DNA of 42,354 nt from Microcaldota archaeon (GTDB lineage Archaea > Micrarchaeota > Micrarchaeia > Anstonellales > Bilamarchaeaceae), in assembly GCA_016212505.1 (NCBI GenBank), contig JACRGB010000027.1, positions 1-42,354 of the forward strand. Direction: 5' to 3'. Shown here piece after piece: positions 119 to 27,949 of this stretch. Positions within the stretch are counted from its first letter, which is position 1. Each line of letters begins with the position of its first letter. Both the position numbers and the translations under genes were made by a program. The notes beneath the pieces were generated by a model. That model made no database searches, was not told the DNA's origin, and saw nothing but the letters and a program-made list of their open reading frames with translations.

Positions 119-119
119 A

Positions 120-7891: not shown

Positions 7892-8154
7892 GCAGGGATG
7901 ACAGAGCCCGGTCAAGGGAGTTTTCAGTCTTGAGTTTCCCGTTTTGGGAAATCGAAACTGGGAACAGGAAACTGAAAACCCGACTAAATGTGCGGCGCTT
8001 AGGACGCCGTGGCTTAGTGCCTGCGCAGGTTCAAAACCCATTACTTTTGATTTATGCTTGCCTTCTGGCAAAAGTAAAGGGATTGGTCAAAAGCCAACCA
8101 GTTTCATTCCGTAACGAAACGGAAAACTGGAAACTGAGAATCCTGCTCCCTGCA
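7892..8154 (+). tRNA. tRNA-Leu(TAG) with two non-canonical introns: D-loop (~7916-7987) and T-loop (~8036-8140)
   Basis: Acceptor GCAGGGA/TCCCTGC+A; ACA-GAGCCCGGTCAA[intron]A-TGT; CGGCG-CTTAGGA-CGCCG; class II variable arm TGGCTTAGTGCCTGC; GCAGG-TTCAAA[intron]T-CCTGC. Spliced length 86 nt. Confidence 0.87.
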
Positions 8155-8181: not shown

Positions 8182-8205
8182 AATTTGACAGAATTCTGTC
8201 AAATT
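8182..8205. promoter_or_regulatory. Perfect 24-nt palindrome AATTTGACAGAATTCTGTCAAATT
   Basis: Perfect palindrome 33 nt upstream of the integrase start; related copies at 9590-9613 and 19106-19129. Confidence 0.7.
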
Positions 8206-8238: not shown

Positions 8239-9459
8239 GTGGTGCATATGGGAAAACTTGATTTGTACAATTACCCCAAGAGGCTTGAGGGGGCGTTAGG
8301 TATGCTAAGGCAAGAGCACATCTGCGAAGAGAATAAACAGGACATAGTATCTTTTACGAAGGTACGGCTTGCCAAAGGCTCAGGACACGGCAGAGTGGCA
8401 AAAATAGTTTATTGCCTTAGGAACATGGCAAAATGGCTGAATAAGCCTTATAGGCAGGCAACGAAAGACGATTTGATAGGCCTCATTGGCGACTTGGAGG
8501 CCAATGTCAACTATGCCGAGCATACAAAATATGACTACAAGGTAGTCCTAAAAATGTTCTACAAATGGCTTTTGGGCAATGACGAATTTTTCCCTCCAGA
8601 AATAAGATGGCTCGGCCTGAAGCTTAAGAACGAAAACCACAAACTGCCCGAGCAATTGCTTACCGAAGATGAGGTATTGAAATTAGCCAACATGGCGGAA
8701 AATCTAAGAGACAAAGCGCTGATTTTGACATTATATGAGGCAGGCTGCCGGATTGGAGAGCTATTATCAATACAAATGAAAAACGTGCAATTTGACCAGC
8801 ATGGTGCCATTCTTAGAGTTAGCGGAAAAACAGGCGACAGACGCATAAGAGTGATAAGTTCCGCACCAATTCTTGGCTCATGGATCAATATGTATCCAAG
8901 ATCATCTGATCCGGATGCACCATTATGGCCATCAACCTGGAGAAACAAAAACTGCGGCATGAAAACATTGGCCTACGGCACATTGTATCAATCGCTCAAG
9001 GATCTTGCAGTAAAGGCAGGGGTTAAGAAAAAAGTTCATCCGCATTTGTTCAGGCATTCCCGAGCTACCGCATTAGCTGGAAAACTTACCGAGGCGCAGA
9101 TGAAGGAGTTGTTTGGGTGGGTTCAGGGTAGCGATATGGCTGCAACGTATGTACACCTTAGCGGCAGGGACGTTGATAACGCTTTGTTGAAATTGCACGG
9201 CTTGGCTAAGCCAGATGAAGAGCAGGAGAATAAAATGAAAGTGCAGGTCTGCCAAAGGTGCAAAGAACATAATTCGCCAATATCGAAATTCTGCACAAAG
9301 TGCGGTTTGCCTCTGGACGAAAAATTCCTAATGAGAGTAGAAAAGGAAATACAAACGGGCAATTATGTAGAAAACAAGCTATGGGAAAATGAGGAGTACA
9401 GAGAGTTTAAAATGAAGATGATAATGAAATTGGGTTTGGATAAACAGCTGATTCATTGA
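8239..9459 (+). CDS. Tyrosine recombinase/integrase with C-terminal zinc ribbon
   Basis: GCRIGELL, HLFRHSRAT and YVHLSGRDVD catalytic region; CQRCKEHNSPISKFCTKCG zinc ribbon; adjacent to a tRNA 3' end. Confidence 0.93.
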   Translation: MVHMGKLDLYNYPKRLEGALGMLRQEHICEENKQDIVSFTKVRLAKGSGHGRVAKIVYCLRNMAKWLNKPYRQATKDDLIGLIGDLEANVNYAEHTKYDYKVVLKMFYKWLLGNDEFFPPEIRWLGLKLKNENHKLPEQLLTEDEVLKLANMAENLRDKALILTLYEAGCRIGELLSIQMKNVQFDQHGAILRVSGKTGDRRIRVISSAPILGSWINMYPRSSDPDAPLWPSTWRNKNCGMKTLAYGTLYQSLKDLAVKAGVKKKVHPHLFRHSRATALAGKLTEAQMKELFGWVQGSDMAATYVHLSGRDVDNALLKLHGLAKPDEEQENKMKVQVCQRCKEHNSPISKFCTKCGLPLDEKFLMRVEKEIQTGNYVENKLWENEEYREFKMKMIMKLGLDKQLIH

Positions 9460-9589: not shown

Positions 9590-9613
9590 AATTTGATAAA
9601 ATCCTGTCAAATT
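9590..9613. promoter_or_regulatory. Second copy of palindromic site: AATTTGATAAAATCCTGTCAAATT
   Basis: Same length and arms as 8182-8205; upstream of the 9726 HTH gene. Confidence 0.55.
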
Positions 9614-9725: not shown

Positions 9726-9995
9726 TTGCTAGGAAAGGAAATATACACTGTGTCATTTAAGGTATTTATGCGGGATTTGAGATTTATCTTCGTGGCTAAG
9801 ATTGTTGATGCAGTAAACAAGATCCTTGAGTTCATTGCTGATAAACCGGTTAGTGTCCACCAGATAGTTTGCAAGACAAAACTGCATACGAATACGGTAA
9901 ATTCCTATCTGGAGATAATCGAAAAAATTCAAAGCTCAAAAAAGATAAAGAAAATTGTTAAAAAGTCAAGAGTTTTCTTTGTCAGAGACTTTTAA
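9726..9995 (+). CDS. Small winged-HTH DNA-binding protein
   Basis: KILEFIADKPVSVHQIVCKTKLHTNTVNSYLEIIE; start uncertain. Confidence 0.5.
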   Translation: MLGKEIYTVSFKVFMRDLRFIFVAKIVDAVNKILEFIADKPVSVHQIVCKTKLHTNTVNSYLEIIEKIQSSKKIKKIVKKSRVFFVRDF

Positions 9996-10005: not shown

Positions 10006-10290
10006 TCAATCTCCTGCTTTTTTTCTACAATCTTCTACGATTTCCCTCGGAATAAACTTAAGTGCAATAATGATTAAACTAGGAACAATAATTAAATCAT
10101 CAAGCTGACCTAGGATTGGTATAAATTCTGGAATTAAATCAAAAGGCATTAGAAAATAACCGATAGCCAAAGCCAGCAGAAGCTTCGGAACTTTGGGAGT
10201 TCTTTTATCACTTAGTACAAGCCGATATACTTTTATCTCTCGTTTTAATTTTCGGGAAAGTTCCTTTAGTTTTTCAAACATTATTTCCAT
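10006..10290 (-). CDS. YkvA/DUF1232-like membrane protein
   Basis: ALAIGYFLMPFDLIPEFIPILGQLDDLIIV. Confidence 0.85.
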   Translation of the reverse strand: MEIMFEKLKELSRKLKREIKVYRLVLSDKRTPKVPKLLLALAIGYFLMPFDLIPEFIPILGQLDDLIIVPSLIIIALKFIPREIVEDCRKKAGD

Positions 10291-10715
10291 CCTCTCATTA
10301 CGATAAGCGTCTGTGTTTGCGTGATATCCGGGAATTTTCTAAGGTAATTAAAAACAAACTGATCCAATTCCTTAATGCTCCCAACTCTTATCTTTATGAT
10401 GATGTCAAACTCACCCGCTATTGCGCCTATGTCTTCGACCTCATCGTGTTTGGTCATATCATTCATCATTGAAGTATAATCAGCTCCAGGTTTCGTTCTC
10501 ACTAAAACATAAGCTGAGGTTTCTTTTCCAAGTTTTTCATAATTCAATGCGAGCGTGTATGCCTCAATTACGCCAAGCTCTTCCAACTTCCGGATCCTCC
10601 TATTGATTGTTGCAGAGGAAAACTTTGTTATCTTGGAAAGCTCCCTAGCCGACAGCCTCGAATCACGCTTTAATTCGTGGATTATCTTCCAATCTACATC
10701 ATCCAATTGTTCCAT
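10281..10715 (-). CDS. Lrp/AsnC family transcriptional regulator
   Basis: LDDVDWKIIHELKRDSRLSARELSK... wHTH plus RAM-like C-terminal domain. Confidence 0.9.
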   Translation of the reverse strand: MEQLDDVDWKIIHELKRDSRLSARELSKITKFSSATINRRIRKLEELGVIEAYTLALNYEKLGKETSAYVLVRTKPGADYTSMMNDMTKHDEVEDIGAIAGEFDIIIKIRVGSIKELDQFVFNYLRKFPDITQTQTLIVMRGWK

Positions 10716-10836: not shown

Positions 10837-11625
10837 ATGGAACCACATTTCCAGTACGCTGGACTGAATGCAAGGATAATCAAAAACGAAACTGCCTTGA
10901 TGGCACAGACTTTGGGACATGAAAATTTATGCAGAAAAGAGTATGAAGATCGGCTTATTGCCGCAATAAAACCAATAGCACACGGAAACTCATGCGAGAA
11001 CCTTTTTGTGCATGGACCCGCTGGATCTGGGAAAACAACGATGATAAAACACGTTTTGGATCAACTGAAACTTTACAATCCGAGAGTTTTATCCCTGTAC
11101 GTTAATTGCTGGTATCACAGCACCTCAATGGCCATATTTACCAAAATAGCCGATGCCTTGGGCGAACCTGTATCAAGAAGAGGAAGGGCGACTGATGAGA
11201 TATTCGACCGTATCATAGAGCTTATGAAATACCAAAAAACTCCAGTCATGCTTGTTCTTGATGAGATAGATGGCCTTGTGCACAGAGACGATACAAGAGT
11301 GCTACACAACATTGCCAGAATAGCCCCTGATGAGGCACGATTTGGTGTTATTGGAATATCTGACGATAGTCACGTACTTTCAAGAGTACATACGAAAATC
11401 AGGGATCATCTTCGTTTTACTCCTTTTGAGATAAAGGGTTATAACAAAGAACAATTATTTGGGTTGCTGAAAAGGAGAGCTGAAACCGGACTGATTGAAG
11501 ACTCCTACAAAGACGAATCTCTGGATAGAATCGCAGAGTTGGCCTTTGATAATAATGGCAACGGCAAATTTGCCCTTGAGCTTCTATGGAAAGTGCCAAG
11601 CACGCAGAGGCAAAAGGCAATGTAG
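10837..11625 (+). CDS. Orc1/Cdc6-like AAA+ ATPase (N-terminal part; apparent frameshift at 3' end)
   Basis: Walker A GPAGSGKTT, Walker B VLDEIDGL; out-of-track tail LLWKVPSTQRQKAM. Confidence 0.8.
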   Translation: MEPHFQYAGLNARIIKNETALMAQTLGHENLCRKEYEDRLIAAIKPIAHGNSCENLFVHGPAGSGKTTMIKHVLDQLKLYNPRVLSLYVNCWYHSTSMAIFTKIADALGEPVSRRGRATDEIFDRIIELMKYQKTPVMLVLDEIDGLVHRDDTRVLHNIARIAPDEARFGVIGISDDSHVLSRVHTKIRDHLRFTPFEIKGYNKEQLFGLLKRRAETGLIEDSYKDESLDRIAELAFDNNGNGKFALELLWKVPSTQRQKAM

Positions 11626-11906
11626 TTCTTTCATTGGAAGATATCGAAGAAATAAATAAACTGATTAATGCAAAAGAACCAGTTTTGAGAGAAGAGGAGC
11701 TTCTCATTGTTGAAATTTTGAAAAGCGGCCAGATAACCTCATCTGAATTGTATTGGCTATTTCAGAAAAAACTTAGGATAAGCAGGCGGCAGATATTCAA
11801 TTACGTGATTGGATTGGAACGCAAAGGGATTATTGAAACGAAGCTTATCCAGAGAGGAAATAGTCCAGGCTTCAAGCTCATCAAACTGAAAGATGGGGGT
11901 GTTTAA
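11586..11906 (+). CDS. C-terminal winged-helix portion of Orc1/Cdc6 in the -1 frame
   Basis: MESAKHAEAKGNVVLSLEDIEEIN + LRISRRQIFNYVIGLERKGIIETK completes the Cdc6 architecture. Confidence 0.7.
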   Translation: MESAKHAEAKGNVVLSLEDIEEINKLINAKEPVLREEELLIVEILKSGQITSSELYWLFQKKLRISRRQIFNYVIGLERKGIIETKLIQRGNSPGFKLIKLKDGGV

Positions 11907-11907
11907 A

Positions 11908-12087
11908 ATGGAAGAAAAGCATTTGATAACGGCGGGACGGGTGAAGCTGTTCCTGCAACAAAACGGGATGAGAATAGCTAATGAAACATACGATGCGATA
12001 GATGCCAAGCTGAAATCAGTTCTTATGGGCGCCGTAAAAAGGGCAGAGAAAAACAGACGTTCAACAGTATTGCCTCATGATTTGTAG
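11908..12087 (+). CDS. Small histone-fold-like protein
   Basis: RVKLFLQQNGMRIANETYDAIDAKLKSVLMGAVKRAEKNRRSTVLPHDL resembles the histone-fold helix-strand-helix pattern. Confidence 0.5.
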   Translation: MEEKHLITAGRVKLFLQQNGMRIANETYDAIDAKLKSVLMGAVKRAEKNRRSTVLPHDL

Positions 12088-12240: not shown

Positions 12241-14661
12241 TTATTGCCCCAGTACCTGTTTTACTTTATCCTCTATCTCTGTCCGTAGTATTACCTTGCC
12301 GTATTTCTCAAAATCCTTTTTCCAGTCCCTGTGTGTAACAAGGATATAGCAGTCGTCATATTCCTGTGCAATCTTTTCATATTTTTGTTTAGTTTCTTCG
12401 GGATGCTTTTCTTCCATCACTCCAGTTTCAACTTCAAAACAGATTTTTCTCTTGTTGTTTGTCATCACAACTACATCTGGATTGTGAGTCGCATACAAAA
12501 CAACATGGTCGGTGTATTTTTTTGCTTCCGCCTCTATTATCTTGCAGAAAAAGAAATGCACCGGGCCTTCGTTGGGGCGTGGTGTCACATAATATCTTTG
12601 GCCTCTTCCTTTTCCAAACGGATTGATTTCGATTTCCGTATACTCCTCATTTTCAAGCATTCTGCATTGATCTTCTGTCAAGTCCTTTTTTAGGTAAAAT
12701 CCCTGATAAATATCGAATATTTTTACCCCTTCTTTTTGTTCCTTCTGTTCATCCTTTGGCGTTTTCATTTTCCTTACCTCTTCCGGATCGGTGGTTATCA
12801 TGTCATGGATCTTTGGAGACGGCTTGGCGAAAAATTTCTGCCTGCCATGCTCGGTTATGATAAGCCCGTGCCCCTTGGTGCACTTTATCAGATAGTCCTT
12901 TTCGTTGCGGTTGAGCTTGAGCACGCCGCTGATAAGGTCAATATTGGAGGTGCTCTGCTTCATGAGGATTTTGACCGAAGTCTGGTTGAGGATGGATTTT
13001 CCGCCTTCCCTGCCGAGCAAATCCTCTATCTCCTGTGTTATGAAGCCTATTGAGGCGTTGAATTTCCTTGATGTTTTTATCAGGTTAAGCAGGTACTCCT
13101 CTGCTTCCTTGCTGCGCAGCAATGCCCAGCCTTCGTCTATCAAAAGCACTTTTGCATTTTTATCCTTCTCAATCTCCCTTTTGATAAAATCCAGCACAAG
13201 AAACATCATCAATGGCTTTACCGCATGGGGCAATTCGCTAAGGTCAAAGTTCAGGAACTTATTCCTCAGATCTATGTCGGTTTGCCTATCCATGAAGCCA
13301 AAAAAGCCGTTCCTGCAATACATCCCGATGCGGTTGATAAGAACCTGCACGCTTCTGGTATCTGAGGACAATTGCTTTTTATCCGCCTTCTCAAGGTCTT
13401 TGAGCTGTGATCCTAGTACGCCGTACATTTCACTGAAAGTAGGAGGCTCTCTTTTCCATGTTTCCGGATCGTTCCTGAAAATCCCTTTCTGCTCATAAAC
13501 GCGGGGCAGTACCCGGTTAAGCACCCCTTTCTGGCTTTCGCTCAACCCTCCAACGATTATGTCGAATATTGAAACAAGGGTAAGGAGCTTGCTGCCAAGA
13601 TCCTGGCCTGCAAGGTCAAATACATTTATCATTGATTTTGAAACCCTTGAAAGCTCGATATTTTCCCCGCCGAATTTCTTGCAGATCTCCTTGTATTCCG
13701 CGTTCGGGTCAAGTATGAATATCTTGGTAGCCTCTGCAAAAAGTATCTGAAGCATGAGGTATTTTGCAGTGTAGCTTTTTCCTGAACCGCTTATCCCAAG
13801 GATAAAAAAATGCTTGTTCGACATTGTACCAAAATCTATGAAGATCGGGTTAAGGGTCTCTTCTTCATGTGCAAACAGGATGCCCTTTTTATCAGAATCA
13901 GAGGATGAAAGGAAAGGGAACGTTGCAGCTAAAGGATAAGTTGGAAACTCCTGCTGCACGCTCAGCTCATCAATGCTTAATGGCAGGCAGGAGCGCAGCC
14001 CTTCATACATTCTGTAATTTGTTGTTTTTGGAATGATCAATAAGCCGTTGAGGTTGGACTTGCATTTTTCAGTAAGCAGATTCAGGTTCTCCAGGGTTGC
14101 CTCCTTGTTGTCAATGTATAATGAAATCCTGAACAGTTTCTCCTCGCCCTTATAGAGTGCATCGTAAAGCTTTTTCGTATCCGCAAGCTTTATTTCCAAC
14201 GAAGGGTTAGGCGTTCCTTTTGCTGTGCTGGAGATCAGGTCAGCGGTCTGCTTCATTATCTGATTCTGCAAAAATGTTAGCGTATCATTTATTACTGAAG
14301 GGTATAGGTGGATTGAAATATCATAATTCTCATTCTTGTTCAGGAATGCACCAAGCCATCCATCCTCAACTTTTCTCGGGTATCCAACTGCCTGAATGAC
14401 TCGATGATATGTTTCGTTTATTCTTGCATAATCCGGTCTTATTTCAACGTAGGAAGGGGTTATAAGATAGGAAAATATCTCATCCTTGGAGATTGGCCTT
14501 TCATGCTTCTGGGTAAGAAAAGCAGGCAGAACAAACCAGTTTTTCCTTGGCTTTTCTATGTTTATCTTTTCAGCAATTAGCCTGTCCACTTCTTCAGGCG
14601 TAAAGAGTCTTGGTCTTTTATGTTCGATTATAATATCTTTTTCTTCATCCATCTTGCTCAC
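12241..14661 (-). CDS. VirB4-like type IV secretion ATPase with C-terminal PD-(D/E)xK-like extension
   Basis: GISGSGKSYTAKYLM, VLLIDEGWALL, FITQEIEDLL; tail HNPDVVVMTNNKRKICFEVETG. Confidence 0.88.
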   Translation of the reverse strand: MSKMDEEKDIIIEHKRPRLFTPEEVDRLIAEKINIEKPRKNWFVLPAFLTQKHERPISKDEIFSYLITPSYVEIRPDYARINETYHRVIQAVGYPRKVEDGWLGAFLNKNENYDISIHLYPSVINDTLTFLQNQIMKQTADLISSTAKGTPNPSLEIKLADTKKLYDALYKGEEKLFRISLYIDNKEATLENLNLLTEKCKSNLNGLLIIPKTTNYRMYEGLRSCLPLSIDELSVQQEFPTYPLAATFPFLSSSDSDKKGILFAHEEETLNPIFIDFGTMSNKHFFILGISGSGKSYTAKYLMLQILFAEATKIFILDPNAEYKEICKKFGGENIELSRVSKSMINVFDLAGQDLGSKLLTLVSIFDIIVGGLSESQKGVLNRVLPRVYEQKGIFRNDPETWKREPPTFSEMYGVLGSQLKDLEKADKKQLSSDTRSVQVLINRIGMYCRNGFFGFMDRQTDIDLRNKFLNFDLSELPHAVKPLMMFLVLDFIKREIEKDKNAKVLLIDEGWALLRSKEAEEYLLNLIKTSRKFNASIGFITQEIEDLLGREGGKSILNQTSVKILMKQSTSNIDLISGVLKLNRNEKDYLIKCTKGHGLIITEHGRQKFFAKPSPKIHDMITTDPEEVRKMKTPKDEQKEQKEGVKIFDIYQGFYLKKDLTEDQCRMLENEEYTEIEINPFGKGRGQRYYVTPRPNEGPVHFFFCKIIEAEAKKYTDHVVLYATHNPDVVVMTNNKRKICFEVETGVMEEKHPEETKQKYEKIAQEYDDCYILVTHRDWKKDFEKYGKVILRTEIEDKVKQVLGQ

Positions 14662-15553
14662 GCTCCTTCAAGAACAATTCGCAGGTCGAAATCCTCCAGA
14701 GATAGTCCTCATTAACCTCGATATAGCCCTCAAAATAGGACATAATCAATGAGATGAGCTGGTTAGTGGTGAGGCGATAGCTCACAAGCCCGCAGTTGCC
14801 CAGCTTTGTCTGTATTATTTTTACCCTTTCGTCAAACTCCCTTAGCTGGGCATCCTTCCGTTTTTCCGAATAGCCCACTTTTTTATACGTTGTCCGATGC
14901 TTTGCGTACTGTGAAGCGGCAGGGTCGTATGGAATGACGATGTAGTACAATCTTTCCTTTACAAAATGCTCTTTGATGAAGCCTTCTTCATACACCTTGA
15001 AGTCGTTGTACAATGCGATAAGGCTCTCATCTTTTGTCTTCAATATCTTTGCCTCATGGTTGCTGAAATAGTCCGCAAGGCTCACATTTACCGTCCTTAT
15101 CAGTATCTGGATTGGATGGGAGAGCTGGTTCAGGAAATCCCTGTAATTCAAGGTGATTGACTTCTGTTTTGCCTCATCCAGCAATTCAAAGTTTATGGGC
15201 TTTACAAGGATTACTGCCCTCATTTCTTTGTTATCCAGGTAAATTACATCGTCCTCTATTTTTTTTATGCCTACAAACGCCCTTATCTTTTTGTCAAGCG
15301 CTCCCCCTAGCCGTGGATTGGTCAGATATCTCCATCTGTCAAGCAGTTTCTTCTCAAGGTCAAAAAGCGCAAAGCCCAGCCCAAGCAATAGCAAAAGGAA
15401 AGCGAGGGTCATTTTACCTTCCTGCATTATTGGAAGGCTATAAGCCAACCCTGCAAGGATCAGGAAAGCGACAAGATAGCCAAGCTGTTTTATATCAAAA
15501 TGCAGGAATATTTTTTCCCGGTATTTTATTTCGTCTGGAATATCATAAGCCAT
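14645..15553 (-). CDS. PrgI/VirB3-like protein plus VirB4 N-terminal-like region
   Basis: DIPDEIKYREKIFLHFDIKQLGYL then two TM segments; IYLDNKEMRAVILVKPINFELL... like VirB4 N-terminus. Confidence 0.7.
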   Translation of the reverse strand: MAYDIPDEIKYREKIFLHFDIKQLGYLVAFLILAGLAYSLPIMQEGKMTLAFLLLLLGLGFALFDLEKKLLDRWRYLTNPRLGGALDKKIRAFVGIKKIEDDVIYLDNKEMRAVILVKPINFELLDEAKQKSITLNYRDFLNQLSHPIQILIRTVNVSLADYFSNHEAKILKTKDESLIALYNDFKVYEEGFIKEHFVKERLYYIVIPYDPAASQYAKHRTTYKKVGYSEKRKDAQLREFDERVKIIQTKLGNCGLVSYRLTTNQLISLIMSYFEGYIEVNEDYLWRISTCELFLKEREQDG

Positions 15554-15562
15554 TCTAACACC

Positions 15563-16513
15563 TCACAAAAATGCTGCCAGCATGGCAATCTTCCAGGCTA
15601 TTGAAAGCACGCCTTCCATTGCTTTCATCCCTTCTCCAACGACTGAAAGGACGGCGACAAGGTAGATGATGAGATTTACAAAGCCGATAAGCCCAAAGCC
15701 AAGCATCAGGCTCATGCCCTGAACAAAGCCGCCTGCAAGGTTAGGGTCATTTGTGCTGAACAAAGCAGATAATCCAGAGACCAGCAGCGCGTCAATGCTG
15801 GTCATGAATACGATAAGAAGTATGAACTTGAGCATGAACGAACCCCATTTTTTTGTGTATGGGATGAAGTAAAGGAAAATTCCAACTGGAAATAAGAGCA
15901 GCAGAAACGGGATCATTATGTAGCGGATCAACAAAGTAAAAAACGTTAGTGCTGCCACTAAAATGAAATTGAATGATATGACAAATCCGAATACTATGGA
16001 TGAGAATGTAGCCTGTATGCTCAGATTATCCAATGCACTGTTGTAAAGTGAATTTGTTATGTATTGATTGAGCTGGAGTATCATACTGAAAAGATTGTAC
16101 GAAACCGACAGGGCAACGATCATGAAGATTATTCTATGAAGCCATGCCTTTGCATCATTCATTTTTTCAGGCTCTGCCGCACTGGCAATATAGTAAGCTC
16201 CTACTCCCATTAAGGCAAGCGAATAAAGACTTTCTAGGACTTTCATAACGTTTGTGTAAGGAGAACAGAACAGGGTTATGTCAGGGCCTTTGATTATGAA
16301 ATTCAGGGCGTTTTGCAGGAACTGTTCTGCACCATAAACAAAACCGCTGATCAATGAGCTAAAGAATTTCTCAACAATGCAGGTCGGCAGGTTGTAAAGA
16401 ACCTGAAGGAAATTTGCATTATCCGGGCATGACTGATTCTGAACCTGAAAATTTATAGATGTTGGAAATACCAACGGCAGCAATAGCAATAAGATGAGTG
16501 TTTGTTTAAGCAT
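15563..16513 (-). CDS. VirB6/TrbL-like polytopic membrane protein
   Basis: Signal peptide and about six TM segments, within the T4SS-like operon. Confidence 0.65.
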   Translation of the reverse strand: MLKQTLILLLLLPLVFPTSINFQVQNQSCPDNANFLQVLYNLPTCIVEKFFSSLISGFVYGAEQFLQNALNFIIKGPDITLFCSPYTNVMKVLESLYSLALMGVGAYYIASAAEPEKMNDAKAWLHRIIFMIVALSVSYNLFSMILQLNQYITNSLYNSALDNLSIQATFSSIVFGFVISFNFILVAALTFFTLLIRYIMIPFLLLLFPVGIFLYFIPYTKKWGSFMLKFILLIVFMTSIDALLVSGLSALFSTNDPNLAGGFVQGMSLMLGFGLIGFVNLIIYLVAVLSVVGEGMKAMEGVLSIAWKIAMLAAFL

Positions 16514-17660
16514 GAGGCATCACCTTTTTTCCGATTTGATACAAAATGTAGAAAGCAATTCCAAGCTCTGCCAGAGAAAGTAGGGAATCAAAAAATGCTG
16601 GCTGTTTTATTTCTACTTTCTCGGATTTGGTAGAGTTTCCAACATCGGAAAGATTGCAGCCGCTAATAGTTTTGGAGTTGAAATGCCCAGAAATTGTCAA
16701 TGAGCAGTTTGGAGAGTAAGGAACTAGAATCCTGAATGCAGAATTATTTCTTTCCAAAATACTTAACCCATATTCAGAGGTTTTGTTTAGCGGTACAATT
16801 TCTTTTATAAGCACATTGTACGGCTCCAGCTCATAGCGGGTTTTGTAAGTGTAATTTGTTTTGTCAAAAGTGGAATTGCCAATCTGAAAATATACTTTAG
16901 AGTTGTTTGCATTTACCAGAACTTCAGCCAGGCCATTGTAGTAAGCTGCAACAGAGTAATTTGAATCAGGCGTGAAATTTTCATACTTGATTTTCTTGGA
17001 ATCAGAAACGCTTATGCTGTCCTTGAAGCTGTCCGTCCGATAGTAATCACAAGTAACCCAGCAGCCGGTCATATCGCAATGAGTTACCAAATGATAGCGG
17101 TCTACCAGATACTCGCTTTTTACGTTAAGTGTCGCCGTAAGATTGGAGCTTATGTTTTTCGTTGAAACAGAATAATCATAGCCGCAAATCCTGAAATTGT
17201 CATTACAATCCCCGCCTAATTTTCTTGTATCAACTACAAAAGTGAAATTCTCCTTTATGAAAACCTTGCTTGTTGAATTCAGCAGATAAGTGCCGTTGTC
17301 ATAAACTGAGGGACTGAAATAGGCAAGGCTGACCCACGCGTCCTTAATGTTTTTCGAGCTTTTGGTAACATTAAACCATTTTCCAAAAGGTATTTTCTGG
17401 TTCCATTGGAAAATATTTTCATAGGAATTGTTGCCTATTGCTTCAGCTATGAAAAGTTTCTTGTCTTCGGTCGTATTAAACGCATTTGCCAGAATGCAAA
17501 TTGGATCGAAGTTAAAATTGCAGTATTGCAAGATCGTATCTGCAGGCTTTGAAGGCTGGATGTATTTACTGGCCTCAACATAGTCCTTATATGTATAGTA
17601 AGGACAGGCTGGAACAGCGACTGCAATACCGCACAAAAGCAATAATAGGAGTTCTTTCAT
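16506..17660 (-). CDS. Secreted/surface glycoprotein with C-terminal TM anchor
   Basis: Signal peptide MKELLLLLLCGIAVAV; Cys-rich; many N-x-S/T sequons; terminal TM LGIAFYILYQIGKK. Confidence 0.65.
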   Translation of the reverse strand: MKELLLLLLCGIAVAVPACPYYTYKDYVEASKYIQPSKPADTILQYCNFNFDPICILANAFNTTEDKKLFIAEAIGNNSYENIFQWNQKIPFGKWFNVTKSSKNIKDAWVSLAYFSPSVYDNGTYLLNSTSKVFIKENFTFVVDTRKLGGDCNDNFRICGYDYSVSTKNISSNLTATLNVKSEYLVDRYHLVTHCDMTGCWVTCDYYRTDSFKDSISVSDSKKIKYENFTPDSNYSVAAYYNGLAEVLVNANNSKVYFQIGNSTFDKTNYTYKTRYELEPYNVLIKEIVPLNKTSEYGLSILERNNSAFRILVPYSPNCSLTISGHFNSKTISGCNLSDVGNSTKSEKVEIKQPAFFDSLLSLAELGIAFYILYQIGKKVMPHA

Positions 17661-17664
17661 GGCA

Positions 17665-17883
17665 TCACCCGCAATAGGTACCCCCTGAGAAAACAGAAGC
17701 CAGCCAAGGCGCCATGAAAACGATGCAAAGGCCAATCACGACCCCAAGAATGACCTCCTTCCATTGGTTTTTCATGGCTGGGTCACGGGTAGTTATCAGC
17801 ATGAAGCCGGAATATGCAATCATGATGATTCCGGCAAGTGCTGAAAGCATTGTTATATCGTTTGCTATGTCTGCTAGTGTCAA
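17665..17883 (-). CDS. VirB2/TrbC-like pilin
   Basis: 72 aa, two TM segments, ends GGTYCG. Confidence 0.65.
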   Translation of the reverse strand: MTLADIANDITMLSALAGIIMIAYSGFMLITTRDPAMKNQWKEVILGVVIGLCIVFMAPWLASVFSGGTYCG

Positions 17884-17884
17884 T

Positions 17885-18181
17885 CTACCACCCGCATATC
17901 CCGGCTGAATTTACCAGCGTTTTCACAAGCACAGGGGCTATCCAGATGATTATCAGGCCGATAATCACGCCTCCCAGCAAGGCCTTGGCCGCATTCTTTT
18001 CCATTATCTCGTGGCTGCTGGCAAGGATAAACCCGGCATAGGCAGCAACCAGAATGCCCGCAACAGTCCCCAGAACCTGGATCATGCCATAAAGATTGCA
18101 GATAGGCTGATCCGGCGGGATAGTCAAAGTTGCAAAACTTAACCCAACAAAAAGCAGGGCTACCGCTAACTCTTTTTTCAT
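17885..18181 (-). CDS. VirB2/TrbC-like pilin (second copy)
   Basis: Signal peptide, two TM segments, ends AGICGW; tandem with the previous pilin. Confidence 0.65.
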   Translation of the reverse strand: MKKELAVALLFVGLSFATLTIPPDQPICNLYGMIQVLGTVAGILVAAYAGFILASSHEIMEKNAAKALLGGVIIGLIIIWIAPVLVKTLVNSAGICGW

Positions 18182-19068
18182 ATCATTTCACCTCGAGGTT
18201 TTTTGACGATAATTTCAAAGGAATGGGGATCCTCGCAGTACCCGGCCTTCTTTTTTATGAGCTCCAGATAAGCCCCATTGATCTCGTACCCTACTGAACT
18301 CCTACACAATTTTTTGGCCACGGCACTGGTGGTCCCGCTTCCCAGAAAAGGATCTAGGACAGATTCTCCCTTATAGGTGTACAATCTGATCAAGGCTTCC
18401 GGGAGCTGCTCCGGAAACATCGCAGGATGCCCCTTCCTTGTTTCTGGCATCATTTCCCAAATATCAGTATTCCAATGAAGTCTGGCATATCGGATATTGA
18501 GCTTTGAATCCTCTTTCATGTCGTGCGTCAGCGTCTTATAGTCGAAATCGCCTTTTCTGAAAACTAGAATATGCTCGTAGATATTGTTTGGATAGTAATA
18601 CATCGGATAGGGGTGTTGAATGAGCAAGCCGAATCTTTTTGAAGCTCCGGAGCAATTTCCGTTTTTTCTGCCCGATGGTTTTTTCCAGATGATATTGTCA
18701 ACGTACTTGAAGCCGCATCTTTGCAGTATGCTTATGCAGTGTGCGTGGATCGGGTATTTTCTTCCATTGCTGATGACGTCGGAAATATTCACACAGACAT
18801 AGCGGCCTTTTGCTAAGACGCGGTAGCATTCCTCGAATACCTGCCTTAACGATTTCAAATAGCCTGCATAGCTGTCAATAGATCCGATATTTTCCGTGCC
18901 ATAGTCCTTGACATTAAAATAAGGCGGACTTGTCACAACCAGCTGGATGGATTCGTTGTCCAGCTCTGCCATGTTATAGGCATCTCCGATTACGATCTGG
19001 TGCCTTGTCGGCACCATCTCTCCAAATTCCTCGAATTTCGAGACCATGCGTTTGGTTTTCATGGTCAA
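18178..19068 (-). CDS. Beta-type DNA methyltransferase (N4-cytosine/N6-adenine), no restriction partner seen
   Basis: VTSPPYFNVKDY precedes DPFLGSGTTSAVA; ATGA overlap with the pilin gene. Confidence 0.88.
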   Translation of the reverse strand: MTMKTKRMVSKFEEFGEMVPTRHQIVIGDAYNMAELDNESIQLVVTSPPYFNVKDYGTENIGSIDSYAGYLKSLRQVFEECYRVLAKGRYVCVNISDVISNGRKYPIHAHCISILQRCGFKYVDNIIWKKPSGRKNGNCSGASKRFGLLIQHPYPMYYYPNNIYEHILVFRKGDFDYKTLTHDMKEDSKLNIRYARLHWNTDIWEMMPETRKGHPAMFPEQLPEALIRLYTYKGESVLDPFLGSGTTSAVAKKLCRSSVGYEINGAYLELIKKKAGYCEDPHSFEIIVKKPRGEMI

Positions 19069-19105: not shown

Positions 19106-19129
19106 AAATTGACAGAATTTTGTAAGATT
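19106..19129. promoter_or_regulatory. Third copy of palindromic site: AAATTGACAGAATTTTGTAAGATT
   Basis: 20/24 identity to 8182-8205; 38 nt upstream of the MTase/T4SS operon start. Confidence 0.5.
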
Positions 19130-19415: not shown

Positions 19416-20312
19416 ATGAAGAAGATAAAGTTTGTGATTTTTGGACTTATCGTGCTTTTGCTAGTAGGATGCAGTGCACCAGTTAAAGAAAATCAAAACG
19501 GAAAATTAACCGTAGTAACTACAATTTACCCAGTTTACGATATTACGAAGAATTTAACATTTGGCTTGGCAGATGTTTCATCACTTATTCCTGCTGGAGT
19601 AGAACCTCATGAGTATGAACCGACTCCTAGCCAGGTTGCTGATCTGCAAAATGCAAATGTATTTGTAATTTCAGGACTAGGTTTTGATGCAGTTGAAGGA
19701 AAATTGGCAAGTAGCTTAAGCAAAAAGGTTAATGTAATAGTGGCAAGTGAGGGGATCGGATTGATGGATGCGACTGGAGAAGAAGCAAAAGAAATGCCAA
19801 AAGATCCTCATATATGGCTATCACCGCAAAGAATGATCATCATGACCCAGAACATCAAAGACGGTTTAGAACAAACAGATCCTGGAAATAAGAATAAATA
19901 CGAGACAAATGCCGCTGCATATGTTTCTGAGCTGCAAAAATTGGATGAAGAATACAAAAACGTTTTATCAAACTGTAATAAAGACACAATACTCACTACG
20001 CACAATGCATTCTCTTATTTATCCAAAGACTACGGGTTCAAGCAGACATCAATATCCGGGCTTAATCCTGATGCTGAGCCCAGCCCTCAGAAGTTAGCAG
20101 AACTAGTTGATGCAGCAAAAAAAGATAAAATAAAATATGTATTTTATGAAGAATTGGTTGATCCAAGAATAGCCCAAACAATAGCGAGCGAAGTCGGCGC
20201 GCAGGCTCTGGAATTAAATCCAATAGAAGGAAGCAAGAATCCTAAGGATAACTATTTTAAGATGATGAGAAGAAATTTAGTTAACCTAAGATTGGCTTTG
20301 GAGTGCAGCTAA
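19416..20312 (+). CDS. znuA: Zinc/manganese ABC transporter substrate-binding lipoprotein
   Basis: Lipobox LLVGCS; TTIYPVYDITKNL, AGVEPHEYEPTPSQ, DPHIWLSPQ, TTHNAFSYLSKDYG. Confidence 0.85.
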   Translation: MKKIKFVIFGLIVLLLVGCSAPVKENQNGKLTVVTTIYPVYDITKNLTFGLADVSSLIPAGVEPHEYEPTPSQVADLQNANVFVISGLGFDAVEGKLASSLSKKVNVIVASEGIGLMDATGEEAKEMPKDPHIWLSPQRMIIMTQNIKDGLEQTDPGNKNKYETNAAAYVSELQKLDEEYKNVLSNCNKDTILTTHNAFSYLSKDYGFKQTSISGLNPDAEPSPQKLAELVDAAKKDKIKYVFYEELVDPRIAQTIASEVGAQALELNPIEGSKNPKDNYFKMMRRNLVNLRLALECS

Positions 20313-21013
20313 TGGACGTTATCGAAATCAAGGATTTATCATTTTCCTATAACGAAAATGAAGTTCTGAATAATATTTCAGTTGAAATAGGAAAAGGCGA
20401 ATTTGTAGCGATGATTGGTCCTAACGGCTCAGGAAAAACAACTTTGATAAAAATTATCCTTGGATTGCTAAATCCCACTGGCGGCTCAATAAAACTTTTT
20501 GGCAAAGACATATCCGAGTTCAGAGATTGGAATGAAATTGGCTATATACCCCAAAAAGGTTCAATTGAAGAAAATTTTCCTGGAAGCATAAGTGAGGTAA
20601 TTTCACTAAAAGAGGGATCGTGCTCGGAAAAAGAAAAAATAGTAAAAATGCTCGATTTGGAAAAATTGCTTGGCCGAAAGTTTTCCAATCTTTCAGGGGG
20701 CCAGCAACAAAAAGTTTTGATAGCTCTTGCATTGACATCTAACCCAAAATTGCTGATACTTGATGAACCAACTGTAGGAGTAGATCTAAAAGTACAACAA
20801 AGTTTCTATGAGATTTTACATAAGCTTAATTCCGAACTTGGAGTGACCATCATAATCGTAACCCATGATGTGGGGGTCATTCCGAATTATGTCCAGAGCA
20901 TCATAAGCATAAACCATAACATATGCTGTAAATCAAAATCGGAAAAAATGGAAGAGTTGCTTGAGCAGGTTTATGGCAAAAAAGTGCAGATGTTTCATCA
21001 CATGCACAAGTGA
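20303..21013 (+). CDS. znuC: Zinc/manganese ABC transporter ATP-binding protein
   Basis: GPNGSGKTTL, LSGGQQQKVLIA, LLILDEPTVGVD. Confidence 0.87.
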   Translation: MQLMDVIEIKDLSFSYNENEVLNNISVEIGKGEFVAMIGPNGSGKTTLIKIILGLLNPTGGSIKLFGKDISEFRDWNEIGYIPQKGSIEENFPGSISEVISLKEGSCSEKEKIVKMLDLEKLLGRKFSNLSGGQQQKVLIALALTSNPKLLILDEPTVGVDLKVQQSFYEILHKLNSELGVTIIIVTHDVGVIPNYVQSIISINHNICCKSKSEKMEELLEQVYGKKVQMFHHMHK

Positions 21014-21017
21014 TTGA

Positions 21018-21839
21018 ATGGTTTTCGAAGTATTAACCTATGAATTTATGCAACGTGCCTTTATTGGCGGAATATTAGTTGCACTACTCTGTGCAAGCTT
21101 AGGAGTCTTTCTGGTTCTCAAAAGGCTTTCACTCCTTGGAGATGGACTTGCACATGCAGCGTTTGGAGGAGTTGCTATTGGTTTGTTGCTGGGCATTTAT
21201 CCAGTTACATCTGCATTAGTAGTTACTGCTGCAAGTGCACTTGGAGTACAGGAACTGATAAAAAAACTCAAAGTTTATGGGGAATCAGCAACTGCAATAG
21301 TTTTATCAGTTGCAATGGGATTGGCAGTAGTAATAATTGGAATAGGTAAGGGATTTAATGTTGATTTGTTTAGCTATTTATTTGGAAGCATTCTGGCCCT
21401 TAACAACATGGACCTGCTGATAATAGGGACAGTATTCATACTTTCGCTCGCGTTTTTAGCACTATTTTACAAAAAACTGGTCTTTATTTCGTTTAATTCA
21501 GAAATTGCCCAAACAAGCGGGATTAATGTTGAACTTATAGATCGGCTCTTTGTGATAATTATTGCGATGACCGTAGTTGTTGCGATAAGAGCGGTTGGCA
21601 TTCTTCTTGTTTCCTCTTTGTTTGTTCTTCCAGCAGTCACAGCTTTCCAAATAGCAAGTTCGTTCAAAAAAACAATGATCTATTCGGTTTTGATTGCACT
21701 TTTTAGCGTAATTTTGGGGGTAGTTACGTCATTTTATCTTGATTTGCCTCCAGGTGGAACAATTGTCCTAATTTTGTTTGGTGTATTCCTGATAAGCATA
21801 ATATTTAAGCAAAGAAAAAAGCATAGAAGGAGTCTATGA
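21018..21839 (+). CDS. znuB: Zinc/manganese ABC transporter permease
   Basis: LSLLGDGLAHAAFGGVAIG; polytopic; next to the znuC-like gene. Confidence 0.87.
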   Translation: MVFEVLTYEFMQRAFIGGILVALLCASLGVFLVLKRLSLLGDGLAHAAFGGVAIGLLLGIYPVTSALVVTAASALGVQELIKKLKVYGESATAIVLSVAMGLAVVIIGIGKGFNVDLFSYLFGSILALNNMDLLIIGTVFILSLAFLALFYKKLVFISFNSEIAQTSGINVELIDRLFVIIIAMTVVVAIRAVGILLVSSLFVLPAVTAFQIASSFKKTMIYSVLIALFSVILGVVTSFYLDLPPGGTIVLILFGVFLISIIFKQRKKHRRSL

Positions 21840-21948
21840 GTAGTGTATAGCGTTGCTATGCTCGATCGTATGAGCTATGGGCTTTGCCCTTATGACCCTA
21901 CTGCTAGTGCTCACTCGACGAGCAAGCTCGCCGTATCTGCAATGCTTG

Positions 21949-22182
21949 TTAATTGAATTCTGATAGTTTTTTCTGAGTGATATCCTGTTTCTTAAGGTAA
22001 TTCTTTACAACTGCCTCAGTCATAGGACCTACGCTTCTATTGGATCTCCAACCACTCCAGAATTCTCTGTCGGGATAAAGCTTGAGAAAGTTGGGGATTT
22101 TTTGAAAAATCTTTGAGGCACTGTGACTTTGAAGATCTGGAGAGGCTGCTGCACTGAAAGAGTTAAAAGGAATGGATCGCAT
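21949..22182 (-). pseudogene. IS200/IS605 TnpA (Y1 transposase) C-terminal remnant
   Basis: IFQKIPNFLKLYPDREFWSGWRSNRSVGPMTEAVVKNYLKKQ matches the TnpA C-terminal pattern; N-terminal HUH motif missing. Confidence 0.65.
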
Positions 22183-22190
22183 ATGATCTC

Positions 22191-24023
22191 ATGAAATATC
22201 TGAATTTTCTTTTTGCTAAAGAGCATCGTATGGAGATAATCCGTATTGGCATAGTTGGTCTTGCAAGTATTTTATTCTGGATGCAAATTCTTCCGTTTCC
22301 AGCACTTCTTGTAGCGATAGGATTTGGGGTCTACTCACTTATTAAGACGGCTGTTTTGGAGCTAATACATGAGAGAAAAATTGGAACTGAACTGTTCATT
22401 TCAATTGCTGTTATTATAGGCATCTTAGGCCAAGAGTATCTTGCTGCGGCGATAGTACTCATGATTATCTTGATCGCAGAGTATATAGCCAGTGTCAATA
22501 CTGAAACAACGCGAGCTTCAATTCAAGATCTTATTGGTACAATCCCAACAACCACCATAGTTTATCGAAACAACAAAGAGACAACAGTAAAAATAGAGGA
22601 GGTTCGTATTGGTGATCTCACTCTTGCTCGCACTGGTGAAAGAATACTAGTCGATGGCGTTGTCATTAAAGGAACTGCAACAATCAACCAAGCACCAATC
22701 ACAGGTGAAAATACTCCGCAAGAGAAGAATGAAGACGACACTGTCTACGCCGGTACCATTGTTACTAGTGGTGCAATCAATATTCAAGTAACCAAACTTG
22801 TACAAGACACCGTCTTTGCACGTATTATTAAGCTGGTGGAAGATGCAGAGCAAAATCAAGCACCAATCGAAAAACTTACTGATAAAATCGCTTCATACCT
22901 CATTCCGATTGTATTCCTCTTTGTTATTGGAGTATATTTGTATACGCGAGATGTGAAAATGGTTATTGCGGTACTCATATTCACATCCCCAGCAGAGCTT
23001 GGGCTTGCTACGCCACTTGTAACAATTTCAGGTGTTGCACGTGCAGCGAAAGAAGGAATTCTTATCAAAGGAGGACTCTACCTTGAAGAACTTGCAAAAG
23101 TAGATACTTTCGTGTTTGACAAAACAGGTACACTCACAAGCGGCATACCAAGTGTTCACTCAGTCATATCATACGACAAAAAGTACACTGAAAAAGAAGT
23201 TCTTGCGTTTGCAGCTGCCGCAGACCGACGATCAAGCCATCCTATCGCAAAAACTATTGTCGCATTCGCAATGCAACAAAAAGTCAGTGTGGCAGAACCA
23301 ACACAATTTATTGTAGTGCACGGTAGGGGAGTACGTGCTACTGTGAAAGGGAAAACTGTCCTAGTGGGTAATAAAGAATTCTTTAGCGAAAACAATATCC
23401 CAATTTCTCAGGAGATCTCACAAACAACCATATTCATCGCAGTGGATAATAGCCTCATCGGTGCGATTACCATTAGCGATACGATTCGTCCAGAAGCAAA
23501 AAAAGCCATCGAGCTGCTACGCACAAGCGGGGTCAAACATTTCTACATGCTCACAGGAGACAATGAAAAAAGTGCGCAAACTGTTGCACAAGCGATAGGC
23601 ATTAGCGAATGGAAGGCAAATCTGCTACCAGAAGAAAAAATCGATTACATCAAAACATTGCAAAAACAAGGGCGCATGGTTGCAATGGTCGGTGATGGAA
23701 TCAACGATGCCCCAGCACTTGCACAAGCAAACATTGGACTTGCAATAGGGGCAAGTGGTACACAGGCAGCAATGGATGTGGCAGACATCGTCCTTGTAGA
23801 TGATAACCTGCTCAAAATCGCACGCGCAAAGGCAATAAGCAAACGCTCGTATCGTACCATCAAAGAAAATCTATTCGTAGGGGTAGGAGTCGTGCACGTC
23901 ATCGGCATCATACTTGTACTCTCACATATCATAGGACCAGTCGAGGCAGCAGCAATACACCTAGTACCAGATGTTGCAGTATTACTGAATTCAGTAAAAC
24001 TTTTGAGGGTAAAAATTGAATAA
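22191..24023 (+). CDS. P1B-type heavy-metal ATPase with atypical SPA motif, no N-terminal metal-binding domain
   Basis: DKTGTLTSG, TGDN, GDGINDAPALAQA; TSPAELGLATP where CPC is usual. Confidence 0.92.
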   Translation: MKYLNFLFAKEHRMEIIRIGIVGLASILFWMQILPFPALLVAIGFGVYSLIKTAVLELIHERKIGTELFISIAVIIGILGQEYLAAAIVLMIILIAEYIASVNTETTRASIQDLIGTIPTTTIVYRNNKETTVKIEEVRIGDLTLARTGERILVDGVVIKGTATINQAPITGENTPQEKNEDDTVYAGTIVTSGAINIQVTKLVQDTVFARIIKLVEDAEQNQAPIEKLTDKIASYLIPIVFLFVIGVYLYTRDVKMVIAVLIFTSPAELGLATPLVTISGVARAAKEGILIKGGLYLEELAKVDTFVFDKTGTLTSGIPSVHSVISYDKKYTEKEVLAFAAAADRRSSHPIAKTIVAFAMQQKVSVAEPTQFIVVHGRGVRATVKGKTVLVGNKEFFSENNIPISQEISQTTIFIAVDNSLIGAITISDTIRPEAKKAIELLRTSGVKHFYMLTGDNEKSAQTVAQAIGISEWKANLLPEEKIDYIKTLQKQGRMVAMVGDGINDAPALAQANIGLAIGASGTQAAMDVADIVLVDDNLLKIARAKAISKRSYRTIKENLFVGVGVVHVIGIILVLSHIIGPVEAAAIHLVPDVAVLLNSVKLLRVKIE

Positions 24024-24088
24024 ACTATCATCATTTAGGATTTCTTTCAAAACCTAATTCTTTTCGGCTACAATATATATTCGTCTAA

Positions 24089-24916
24089 ATGCCATCTATA
24101 CCATTCATGATCGCAGAGTTTATCGTGATGTTTAGAGAGAGTCTTGAAGTGGCATTCGTCATCGGTATCATCCTTGCTTACCTCCACAAGACCAAGAACC
24201 AAGATCAGGAGAAACACGTCTGGCTTGGTGTGTGCTCAGGTATATTGATAAGCATAGCGCTTGTATTCGCTTTCCAGGCATTGAAAATAGAGTTCGAGGA
24301 CCATGAGGAAATTTTTGAAGGATTCTTCATGATCACAACCGCCGCTCTCGTGAGCTGGCTAATCCTTTGGGTAGTAAAGCAGAAAAAGATAGTGGAGAAT
24401 CTCCAAAGTGAAGTTAAAGTCGTGCTCGAGAAGAATGGAATGTTCGGCCTTTTCCTGCTTGCCCTAACCGCTACTCTTCGCGAGTCTGTAGAATCAGTAT
24501 TGTTTATGGCTGGCATTTACATCAATGCCGGTGCAATATCGCTTCTTGGCGGATTCCTCGGTATTGCAGCAGCAGTGATAGTAGGCATCCTAGTTTTCGA
24601 ATATGCTGTAAGATTCAACATTGGTCTCTTCTTCAAGGCCACCACGGTCATACTTGTCCTGCTTACCGCCGGGCTCTTCTCTCAAGGGCTGCATGAACTC
24701 CAAGAGGCGAAAGTGCTTCCAGAGTGGATCGAGCATGTGTACGATATAAACCCGCCACAGAATCCTGATGGCACCTATCCGCTTCTCCATGAGAAAGGAG
24801 CGATCGGAGGCGTGTTCAAGGGTCTGATAGGCTATGATGGCGATCCGAGCGACCTTCAGGTGGCCGGCTATCTGGCTTATGTGGCAGTCATGTACGCTGT
24901 TTACAAAAGGAACTGA
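24089..24916 (+). CDS. FTR1 family iron permease
   Basis: Two RExxE motifs (RESLE, RESVE) in a polytopic protein. Confidence 0.87.
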   Translation: MPSIPFMIAEFIVMFRESLEVAFVIGIILAYLHKTKNQDQEKHVWLGVCSGILISIALVFAFQALKIEFEDHEEIFEGFFMITTAALVSWLILWVVKQKKIVENLQSEVKVVLEKNGMFGLFLLALTATLRESVESVLFMAGIYINAGAISLLGGFLGIAAAVIVGILVFEYAVRFNIGLFFKATTVILVLLTAGLFSQGLHELQEAKVLPEWIEHVYDINPPQNPDGTYPLLHEKGAIGGVFKGLIGYDGDPSDLQVAGYLAYVAVMYAVYKRN

Positions 24917-25015
24917 TGCAATTCCCACGAAGAGAACGTTTCCCCCTCCGCGGTTCGGAATTAAACATAAATGCGGCTTAACTGGTTGTCTACAAATAGG
25001 GATTCGCTCCAGAAT

Positions 25016-26088
25016 CTATCGAACAAAGAAGAAAAGAGTTGCAATTATCAAGTACATTATCATTAGTTGTGCCCCTTCAAACCAATTGCATCTTCCATCA
25101 CTTGAGATTTCATTTACGATTAAAATACTGGCAAAAACAGCTATTATCTCAAATGGTGTAAACACTAAATCCATCGTCTTATTGATAAGTGATGCTACAA
25201 GGACACAAATCGGAACAACAAACATCGCTATTTGCAGGCTTGAGCCGACAGTGACATTGATTGACAAATCTATATTATTTTTCAAAGCAAAGGAAACTGA
25301 GCTTATGTGTTCTGCTGCATTGCCCACTAAGGCAACTATAACTGCACCGATAAACAGTTCAGTTAAACCAAATTGATGACCGACTGCCTCAATGTGACCT
25401 ACAAAAACTTCACTGACTAGTGCAAGTGCGATAGTTGATAATGCAAGTACCGTAATAGAAAAATTCCTACTCCAATGTGGTTTTTCTTTCCGTTCTTCTT
25501 CACTTTCCCTAAAGAGATGCTGATGTGTTTTAAGCGAAAAGACCATGCTAAGTACGTATGTTCCAATTAACAATATCGAAACCACCGTACTAAGGGTTTG
25601 CTCGTCATTTCCCCTGTGCTCTACTGGCACAAAATGGAACAGGCTCGGTATCATTATGCTCATAAATGCGATTAAGAGCATTGTTGAGTTGAGACCAGCC
25701 AAATTAGTTGAAAACTTTTGTTCCTTGTTTTTTAGCCCACCTACAAACATACTTAGTCCAAGAACAAAAAGCAGGTTTCCTATGATACTTCCTGCAATTG
25801 ACGCCTTCACCAATTCTTCAAGTCCTTTATTAATCGCAATTAATGCAATGATCAATTCTGCTGCGTTTCCAAATGTCACGTTTAATAGACTTCCAAGCTG
25901 CCCTCCGTATATTTTAGCAAGTTCTTCGGTGGCATGGCCCATCTTGGATGCAAGAGGTAGGATTGCCAGAAGGGACACAGTAAACAATGTTGTACTGTCC
26001 CCAAGTCCACTATAGCTTAAGAGTAAAGAGATAGGGACGAAAACTAACAATAAATCCATTATTGCAAATTCATATTTTCCAATTTTCA
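25016..26088 (-). CDS. CAX-type calcium/proton exchanger (CaCA superfamily)
   Basis: GNAAELIIALIAI and VALVGNAAEHISSVSFALKN alpha-repeats; start taken at MKIGKYEF. Confidence 0.85.
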
Positions 26089-26146
26089 TTTTAGATCTTA
26101 AGAATAGATAGATGGGATGTTTTTTATTCCCAACTTGGTAAGCCAC

Positions 26147-27934: not shown

Positions 27935-27949
27935 CTTAGGCTGTTCAAA

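Follow-up and report, generated by a model that had tools for sequence, protein, structure and literature searches.

A relaxase cuts the DNA of a conjugative element and makes the strand that is to be transferred. How, then, could DNA be processed for transfer by an element whose type IV secretion system (T4SS) has no recognisable relaxase beside it? The question is raised by a minus-strand operon at 12241-19068 of a 42,354-nucleotide stretch of DNA (the window), which makes up an entire contig of a genome of 1.48 Mb (G000; other labels beginning with G or L denote genomes or loci of relatives). Loci related to the T4SS module are assigned to Candidatus Micrarchaeota, and the host is a micrarchaeon. 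According to published work, archaeal conjugative elements have no recognisable relaxase, and the source of their transferable DNA is unknown (PMC9905601, PMC6563490). An earlier note had described the operon as a minimal T4SS-like one without recognisable relaxase or coupling protein, possibly a non-canonical machine for conjugation or DNA import/export, or a contact apparatus. The operon belongs to a new form of archaeal integrative conjugative element (ICE), and the locus is probably an ICE-like element of Micrarchaeota whose T4SS motor bears, as a fused domain, the nuclease that processes its DNA. Computation supports an island with attachment (att) sites and recent movement, the T4SS parts, the fold and residues of the nuclease, and the existence of stand-alone copies of it. 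This domain could be the enzyme, long missing, that processes DNA in archaeal conjugation.

The operon consists of seven minus-strand open reading frames that overlap or abut, and the identities proposed in the earlier note are upheld by these frames, by hidden Markov model searches, by fold and by a recurrent gene order. The first gene, conserved in that position and present in nearly all copies of the module, encodes an N4/N6 DNA methyltransferase (18178-19068, N6_N4_Mtase, 1.7e-48). It is followed by a VirB2-like pilin with a signal peptide (17885-18181, TrbC, 9e-6), a second VirB2-like pilin (17665-17883, T4SS_pilin, 3e-9), and a sequon-rich surface protein (16506-17735, with a better ATG start at 17660). 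Inspection of the surface protein indicates a signal peptide and a C-terminal transmembrane segment; it contains 18 N-glycosylation sequons, compared with a mean of 5.3 and a maximum of 13 in 2000 shuffles, and a family search returned no match to it. The next product (15563-16513) had no Pfam match among 12 homologues, but its predicted fold supports identification as the VirB6-like channel protein: with an AlphaFold model built from 12 sequences (predicted local distance difference test score, pLDDT, 73), R388 TrwI/VirB6 ranked top in both Foldseek and VIA-align. The three best PDB entries (7o3v, 8rt9 and 8rtd) are all R388 TrwI/VirB6, with Z values of 9.8, 9.2 and 8.7 over about 220 residues that lie near the range of chance matches between helical proteins, the top three entries still being the expected protein. 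The last two genes encode a PrgI/VirB3 protein joined to a VirB4 N-terminal domain (14645-15553, PrgI 0.0023, with VirB4/TrsD N-terminal matches), for which the PrgI match is under the curated cut-off yet consistent by position and partner, and the VirB4 ATPase (12241-14661, TraG P-loop, 3e-25; CD1110-family VirB4, 3.5e-82). These two genes are separate and overlap at 14645-14661 in the window, G016, G001:C15, G047, L065 and L077; in other copies they form one fused frame of about 1000-1140 amino acids, a conserved gene fission or fusion.

The PrgI/VirB3, VirB4 and VirB6 set of an MPF_FATA type T4SS is thus present, and the best matches of the VirB4 are CD1110 and Mbov_0397. The module resembles the MPF_FATA systems (the CD1110 VirB4 family; Patescibacteria, PMC12102498) in its PrgI/VirB3, VirB4, VirB6 and VirB2 parts, and differs from them in having no recognised VirB1 or VirB8, a VirB3-VirB4 fusion in some family members, and an extra nuclease domain. 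A synteny search, one of the checks proposed earlier, found the same gene order at about 20 Micrarchaeota loci, and therefore the operon is not a product of chance. The module occurs in G016, G001 (two copies), G009, G015, G047, G023 and further Micrarchaeota; this genome has three copies, in the window and on contigs C38 and C6. The VirB4 of the C6 copy is interrupted at about residue 483, at a contig-end overlap. The operon is also found on a contig (L077) in a Bathyarchaeota metagenome-assembled genome, with a VirB4 that is 68% identical; either the contig is mis-binned or there was cross-phylum transfer.

The operon lies within an island that the earlier note did not describe. The integration target is a plus-strand tRNA-Leu(TAG) gene (7892-8153) with two introns (7916-7987 and 8035-8139), recognised by ARAGORN as an 85-nt tRNA after both are spliced out. 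Its 3′ end includes the attL core TGCTCCCTGCA (8144-8154), and a search for exact copies located three more on the plus strand: at the right end of the T4SS-bearing segment (29369-29379), between two single-gene segments (31223-31233), and at the chromosomal end of the island (attR, 32168-32178). With up to one mismatch allowed, TGCTCCCTGCA has 5 matches where 0.5 are expected, a number reached by none of 100 shuffles. The bases after the last copy resemble the flank of the tRNA-Leu site in G002, which is empty: the order Mre11 - tRNA-Leu - NUDIX - rps12 - rps7 is kept there and the island is absent. From the repeats of the tRNA 3′ end at 29369, 31223 and 32168 and from this synteny, the island spans about 8155-32178, is integrated into an intact tRNA-Leu gene at its 3′ end, and comprises three att-bounded segments, namely the T4SS element, which carries metal-transport cargo, and the two single-gene segments.

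Next to the tRNA gene is a plus-strand gene for an Xer-type tyrosine recombinase, or integrase, with a C-terminal zinc ribbon (8239-9459, Phage_integrase, 1.2e-17). The recombinase adjoins tRNA-Leu in the window, C38 and G016 copies alike; the gene occupied by the C38 copy is tRNA-Leu(CAG), and that occupied by the G016 copy is tRNA-Leu-like. The element also encodes an Orc1/Cdc6-like initiator on the plus strand (10837-11906, Cdc6_lid, 1.3e-7), frameshifted into two frames (10837-11625 and 11586-11906) where an A run near 11589 has lost one base; the gene is intact in the 96% identical G016 copy, and intact at 356 amino acids in other copies. The proteins of the window and G016 elements are 91-100% identical (VirB4 98%, PrgI 98.7%, VirB6 97%, pilin 100%), whereas elongation factor 2 of the two genomes is 81% identical, a difference that supports recent horizontal movement of the element.

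The absence of VirD4 and of a relaxase from the window, reported in the earlier note, holds for the known profiles searched, and neither was found elsewhere on the element. PF12696 (TraG-D_C) has no match in G000. Searches of G000 and 11 relatives with PF02534 (T4SS-DNA_transf) and PF03432 (Relaxase) returned nothing except one weak Walker-A match in G059, and PF13814 (Replic_Relax) nowhere exceeded its cut-off; weak PF13814 matches carry no meaning because control genomes give them too. Thus no VirD4/TcpA coupling protein was found on the element with the PF12696 and PF02534 profiles, and no known-MOB relaxase with PF03432 and PF13814 (MobA_MobL, Mob_Pre, TrwC and Rep_trans were not searched genome-wide). 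A VirD4 candidate on contig C21 of G000 (786 amino acids, TrwB_AAD_bind PF10412, 5e-10) was rejected as the coupling protein of the element because it is chromosomal, occurs in 21 of 40 relatives including element-free ones, and was not found in the element carriers G015 and G016; this HerA/TrwB-like ATPase could conceivably act as a helper.

A candidate for the cutting enzyme is attached to the motor itself. The VirB4 extends about 160 residues beyond its usual end. Among 5000 plasmid records, one place only covers 80% of the protein, nearly all of the alignments listed end at residues 589-644, and the extension is absent from plasmid VirB4s among those matches; the domain alone found nothing in the plasmid collection, and neither VirB4 nor its C-terminal domain found a relative in the viral contigs searched. 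The domain (about residues 658-806; 12244-12690, minus strand) contains the invariant residues H702, D729 and E745-T746-G747 in addition to E743, which is D in some stand-alone copies. The H, D, E, T and G are invariant among 17 fusions and remnants, and remain so in a wider set, where all 44 sequences have them. The AlphaFold2 model of the domain (pLDDT 82.6) has the alpha-beta-beta-beta-alpha-beta topology of PD-(D/E)XK enzymes, and its Foldseek and VIA matches are mostly PD-(D/E)XK nucleases: YaeQ, NucS, XPF/ERCC1, Hjc, Can2/Card1, BamHI, FokI and the nicking enzyme Nt.BspD6I. A PD-(D/E)XK nuclease fold with conserved catalytic-type residues is therefore supported by computation.

The MOBC relaxases also have a PD-(D/E)XK fold (PMC12857230), and the Pfam family Replic_Relax corresponds to MOBC (PMC5357655). 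In an alignment with MobC, the order H - PD - E-x-E is common to both, with a D-to-E spacing of 13 in MobC and 13-14 in the VirB4 domain; the MobC was a clean protein from a Citrobacter plasmid, chosen on account of frame errors in the CloDF13 record. The MOBC relaxases compared (CloDF13 MobC, pAD1 TraX; Replic_Relax) thus share the fold, the residues, their order and nearly their spacing with the domain, but they are separate proteins of about 240-250 amino acids encoded beside a VirD4-type gene, whereas the domain forms the C-terminal part of VirB4 and falls below the Pfam cut-off, for which reason its membership of Replic_Relax by Pfam was rejected. Aligned to the MOBC profile by hhalign, the domain gave an E-value of 0.002 with 17 sequences; with 44 the E-value was 5e-4 and the score 32 (29.5 when trimmed) against a maximum of 18.1 in 100 column shuffles. 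The segment preceding the domain aligns weakly by hhalign with the N-terminal region of MobC; Pfam detected no winged helix-turn-helix (wHTH) in six stand-alone copies. The shared residue order and spacing, and a profile score above every column shuffle, support calling the domain MOBC-like, though not proven MOBC, by a sequence resemblance that is weak but above controls.

A phylum-wide search found the domain in VirB4 fusions, in stand-alone genes beside Xer, and in fusions to a HerA-like ATPase, three settings in all. The stand-alone genes (273-295 amino acids; L116, L117, L130, L131 and two in L133) have no T4SS genes nearby, and one of these loci is at tRNA-Leu(CAG). In a midpoint-rooted tree, the stand-alone group is nested in the VirB4-fused group, with support of 0.83 for 8 of the 12 rows, several rows being duplicates of one protein. 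Streptococcal integrative mobilizable elements likewise combine an integrase with a relaxase-type gene and have no T4SS of their own (PMC5357655); the Xer-plus-nuclease loci differ in being archaeal, in having a nuclease related to the VirB4-fused domain, and in that their mobilization is putative. Because an integrase and a nuclease without a T4SS parallel bacterial mobilizable elements, the layout supports, by analogy, a role of the domain in processing DNA for transfer. Fusions to the HerA-like ATPase occur, usually once per genome, in two other Micrarchaeota families (L124:10049-11791, L125:8915-10621, L126:8278-10098 and L127:6783-9941; most sampled genomes of the two families), and the best NCBIfam match of the L126 protein is CedD (8.5e-18). 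One Micrarchaeota genome (G164; L118 and L133) has ten domain matches, VirB4-fused and stand-alone, and an open frame at L123:6243-7541 combines the nuclease domain with a DDE_3 transposase domain. In Thermoproteota, matches were weak and limited to 2 of 300 genomes; within the genomes searched, the domain is therefore all but confined to Micrarchaeota.

These results can be assembled into a working model. The Xer recombinase would insert the element at the 3′ end of tRNA-Leu genes and presumably excise it too, whereupon Orc1/Cdc6 would presumably replicate the excised circle. The operon would build a monoderm T4SS from two VirB2 pilins, a VirB6 channel, PrgI/VirB3, the VirB4 motor and a surface adhesin, while the methyltransferase may mark or protect element DNA. 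The fused PD-(D/E)XK domain would do the cutting of a relaxase, placing cutting and pumping on one motor, and VirB4 with its nuclease would pump DNA through the VirB6/VirB2 channel. The small elements that have a stand-alone nuclease beside the same recombinase would probably hitch-hike on this machine. A stricter version, in which VirB4 alone recognises, nicks and pumps the element DNA, so that one polypeptide takes the place of relaxase and coupling protein, and satellites mobilise by means of the detached nuclease and an integrase, is held only tentatively.

Several points weigh against the model. Nuclease activity, nicking at an origin of transfer (oriT), coupling, transfer and hitch-hiking are inferred, as are excision and replication of the element. 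Neither an oriT nor a nic site was identified. The hhalign probability for MOBC is low (13-31%), the PF13814 cut-off is never reached (one of nine domains matches, at E 0.009), and proteins with PD-(D/E)XK folds have many other functions. The frameshift in the Orc gene means that the window copy may be decaying, or the missing base may be an assembly error. Finally, the fusion of the same domain to a chromosomal HerA-like ATPase elsewhere suggests a more general motor-plus-nuclease role.

The last point leads to the main rival, which keeps the same element and reads the fused nuclease as a HerA-NurA-like module for resection or degradation, producing single-stranded DNA from ends or removing competing DNA, rather than as a site-specific relaxase; initiation would then occur otherwise, or double-stranded DNA would be transferred. 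The chromosomal HerA-like fusions favour it, as do fold matches that include Hjc, NucS and Can2 besides nickases, and HerA-NurA has been proposed as the source of single-stranded DNA for Ced/Ted (PMC9905601). Resection nevertheless fits poorly with the stand-alone copies, which adjoin integrases with no motor gene detected nearby, like mobilization genes, and with a residue order and spacing that agree with MOBC; it is considered rather unlikely.

Less probable still is that the machine is a Ced/Ted-like DNA importer or a contact apparatus, located in a genomic island only by circumstance and working for the host, by importing partner DNA or by epibiotic contact. The Ced/Ted import systems (PMC9905601, PMC11868833) also have VirB2-, VirB6- and VirB4-like parts, and a T4SS without relaxase or coupling protein is their layout (PMC9905601); the T4SS of Patescibacteria is thought to have been co-opted (PMC12102498), and one genome here has three divergent copies. 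However, Ced/Ted are chromosomal, domesticated importers in which CedB/CedD split VirB4 and for which no fused nuclease is reported in the literature searched, whereas the window operon lies on a mobile element, well-assembled close copies have integrase, Orc or att context, and the distribution is patchy with recent transfer. The contact apparatus put forward in the earlier note is accordingly less likely, given that an integrase accompanies the module and that its movement was recent. Of its other suggestions, the non-canonical transfer machine is supported as a T4SS-like apparatus in which no VirD4 and no classical relaxase can be recognised, and the minimal T4SS is supported as to those two absences; both were incomplete, the former in missing the element context and the VirB4 C-terminal domain, and the latter in that the operon is part of an integrative element with recombinase, Orc, att sites and a MOBC-resembling nuclease domain on VirB4. 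The weakest alternative, that the Xer recombinase is itself the relaxase and the VirB4 domain an accessory, as TcpM (MOBM) serves pCW3, draws on the existence of tyrosine-recombinase relaxases (PMC5357655, PMC12857230) and on the presence of Xer in both element types, but it is very improbable, since integration alone accounts for Xer at tRNA-Leu att sites and a retained, invariant nuclease domain is left unexplained.

The element has an integrase, an attachment site that is empty in a relative, and its own T4SS with VirB4, as an ICE should, but no known MOB-family relaxase or VirD4/TcpA was found on it. Its closest counterparts in outline are the thaumarchaeal integrative-conjugative elements and Sulfolobus conjugative plasmids (PMC6563490), which also have VirB4, VirB6 and VirB3, integrate in the host genome and have no recognisable relaxase. 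They usually have a VirD4/TraG homologue, TadC/FlaI/PilT and often TFIIB-ParB, whereas the window element has no VirD4 that could be found and has, unlike them, Orc1/Cdc6, a conserved methyltransferase and a nuclease domain on VirB4. No described conjugation module identical to this one was found in the literature searched, nor any conjugative element of Micrarchaeota; with no relaxase or VirD4 found on the element either, neither outcome that the earlier note named as refuting it has occurred. If true, the one-polypeptide reading would amount to a previously undescribed architecture for conjugation, and would answer how relaxase-less archaeal elements process DNA. A nuclease that is fused to VirB4 and free-standing in hitch-hiker-like elements is a testable candidate for the missing relaxase, with its catalytic residues named. 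The element also shows gene flow, metal transporters included, between species of a DPANN lineage.

Other genes and sequences of the element may concern its regulation. A 24-bp palindrome, AATTTGACAGAATTCTGTCAAATT, at 8182-8205 is a likely operator, with relatives at 9590-9613 and 19106-19129, and it is also upstream of Xer in the G016, G001_C52 and C38 copies. The near-palindrome TTGACAGAATTCTGTCAA is shared by the three positions, of which 8182 precedes Xer, 9590 follows it and 19106 precedes the T4SS operon, and it is kept in other copies; the sequence is the probable operator of a regulator of the element. Between Xer and the operon are genes for an 89-amino-acid wHTH-like protein (9726-9995, plus strand), which has weak HTH matches and is kept in several copies, an Lrp/AsnC regulator (10281-10715, minus strand; AsnC_trans_reg, 1.2e-15), which is kept in other copies, and a 64-amino-acid protein (11893-12087, plus strand), which is histone-like by eye, inconclusive by Pfam and kept in several copies.

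The cargo region (19416-29142), annotated mostly by inspection, encodes a ZnuABC-like transporter, a P-type ATPase, an FTR1-like permease, two CaCA-type exchangers and a small secreted protein, together with an AAA_14/DUF4143 ATPase identified by Pfam; two cargo genes are common to the window element and the C38 contig. The single-gene segments encode a 581-amino-acid protein without family (29380-31233) and a second DNA methyltransferase (31234-32178); bounded by att copies and without an integrase, they are like cassettes or remnants stacked at one site. One intron of the tRNA-Leu(TAG) gene is near the D-arm and the other in the T-loop, directly beside the integration site; introns are apparently also present in the tRNA-Leu genes of G009, G006, C38 and G016, and the G002 homologue has none. 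At the ends of their contigs, window positions 2-140 and G000:C6:32780-32918 form an identical inverted overlap of 139 bp.

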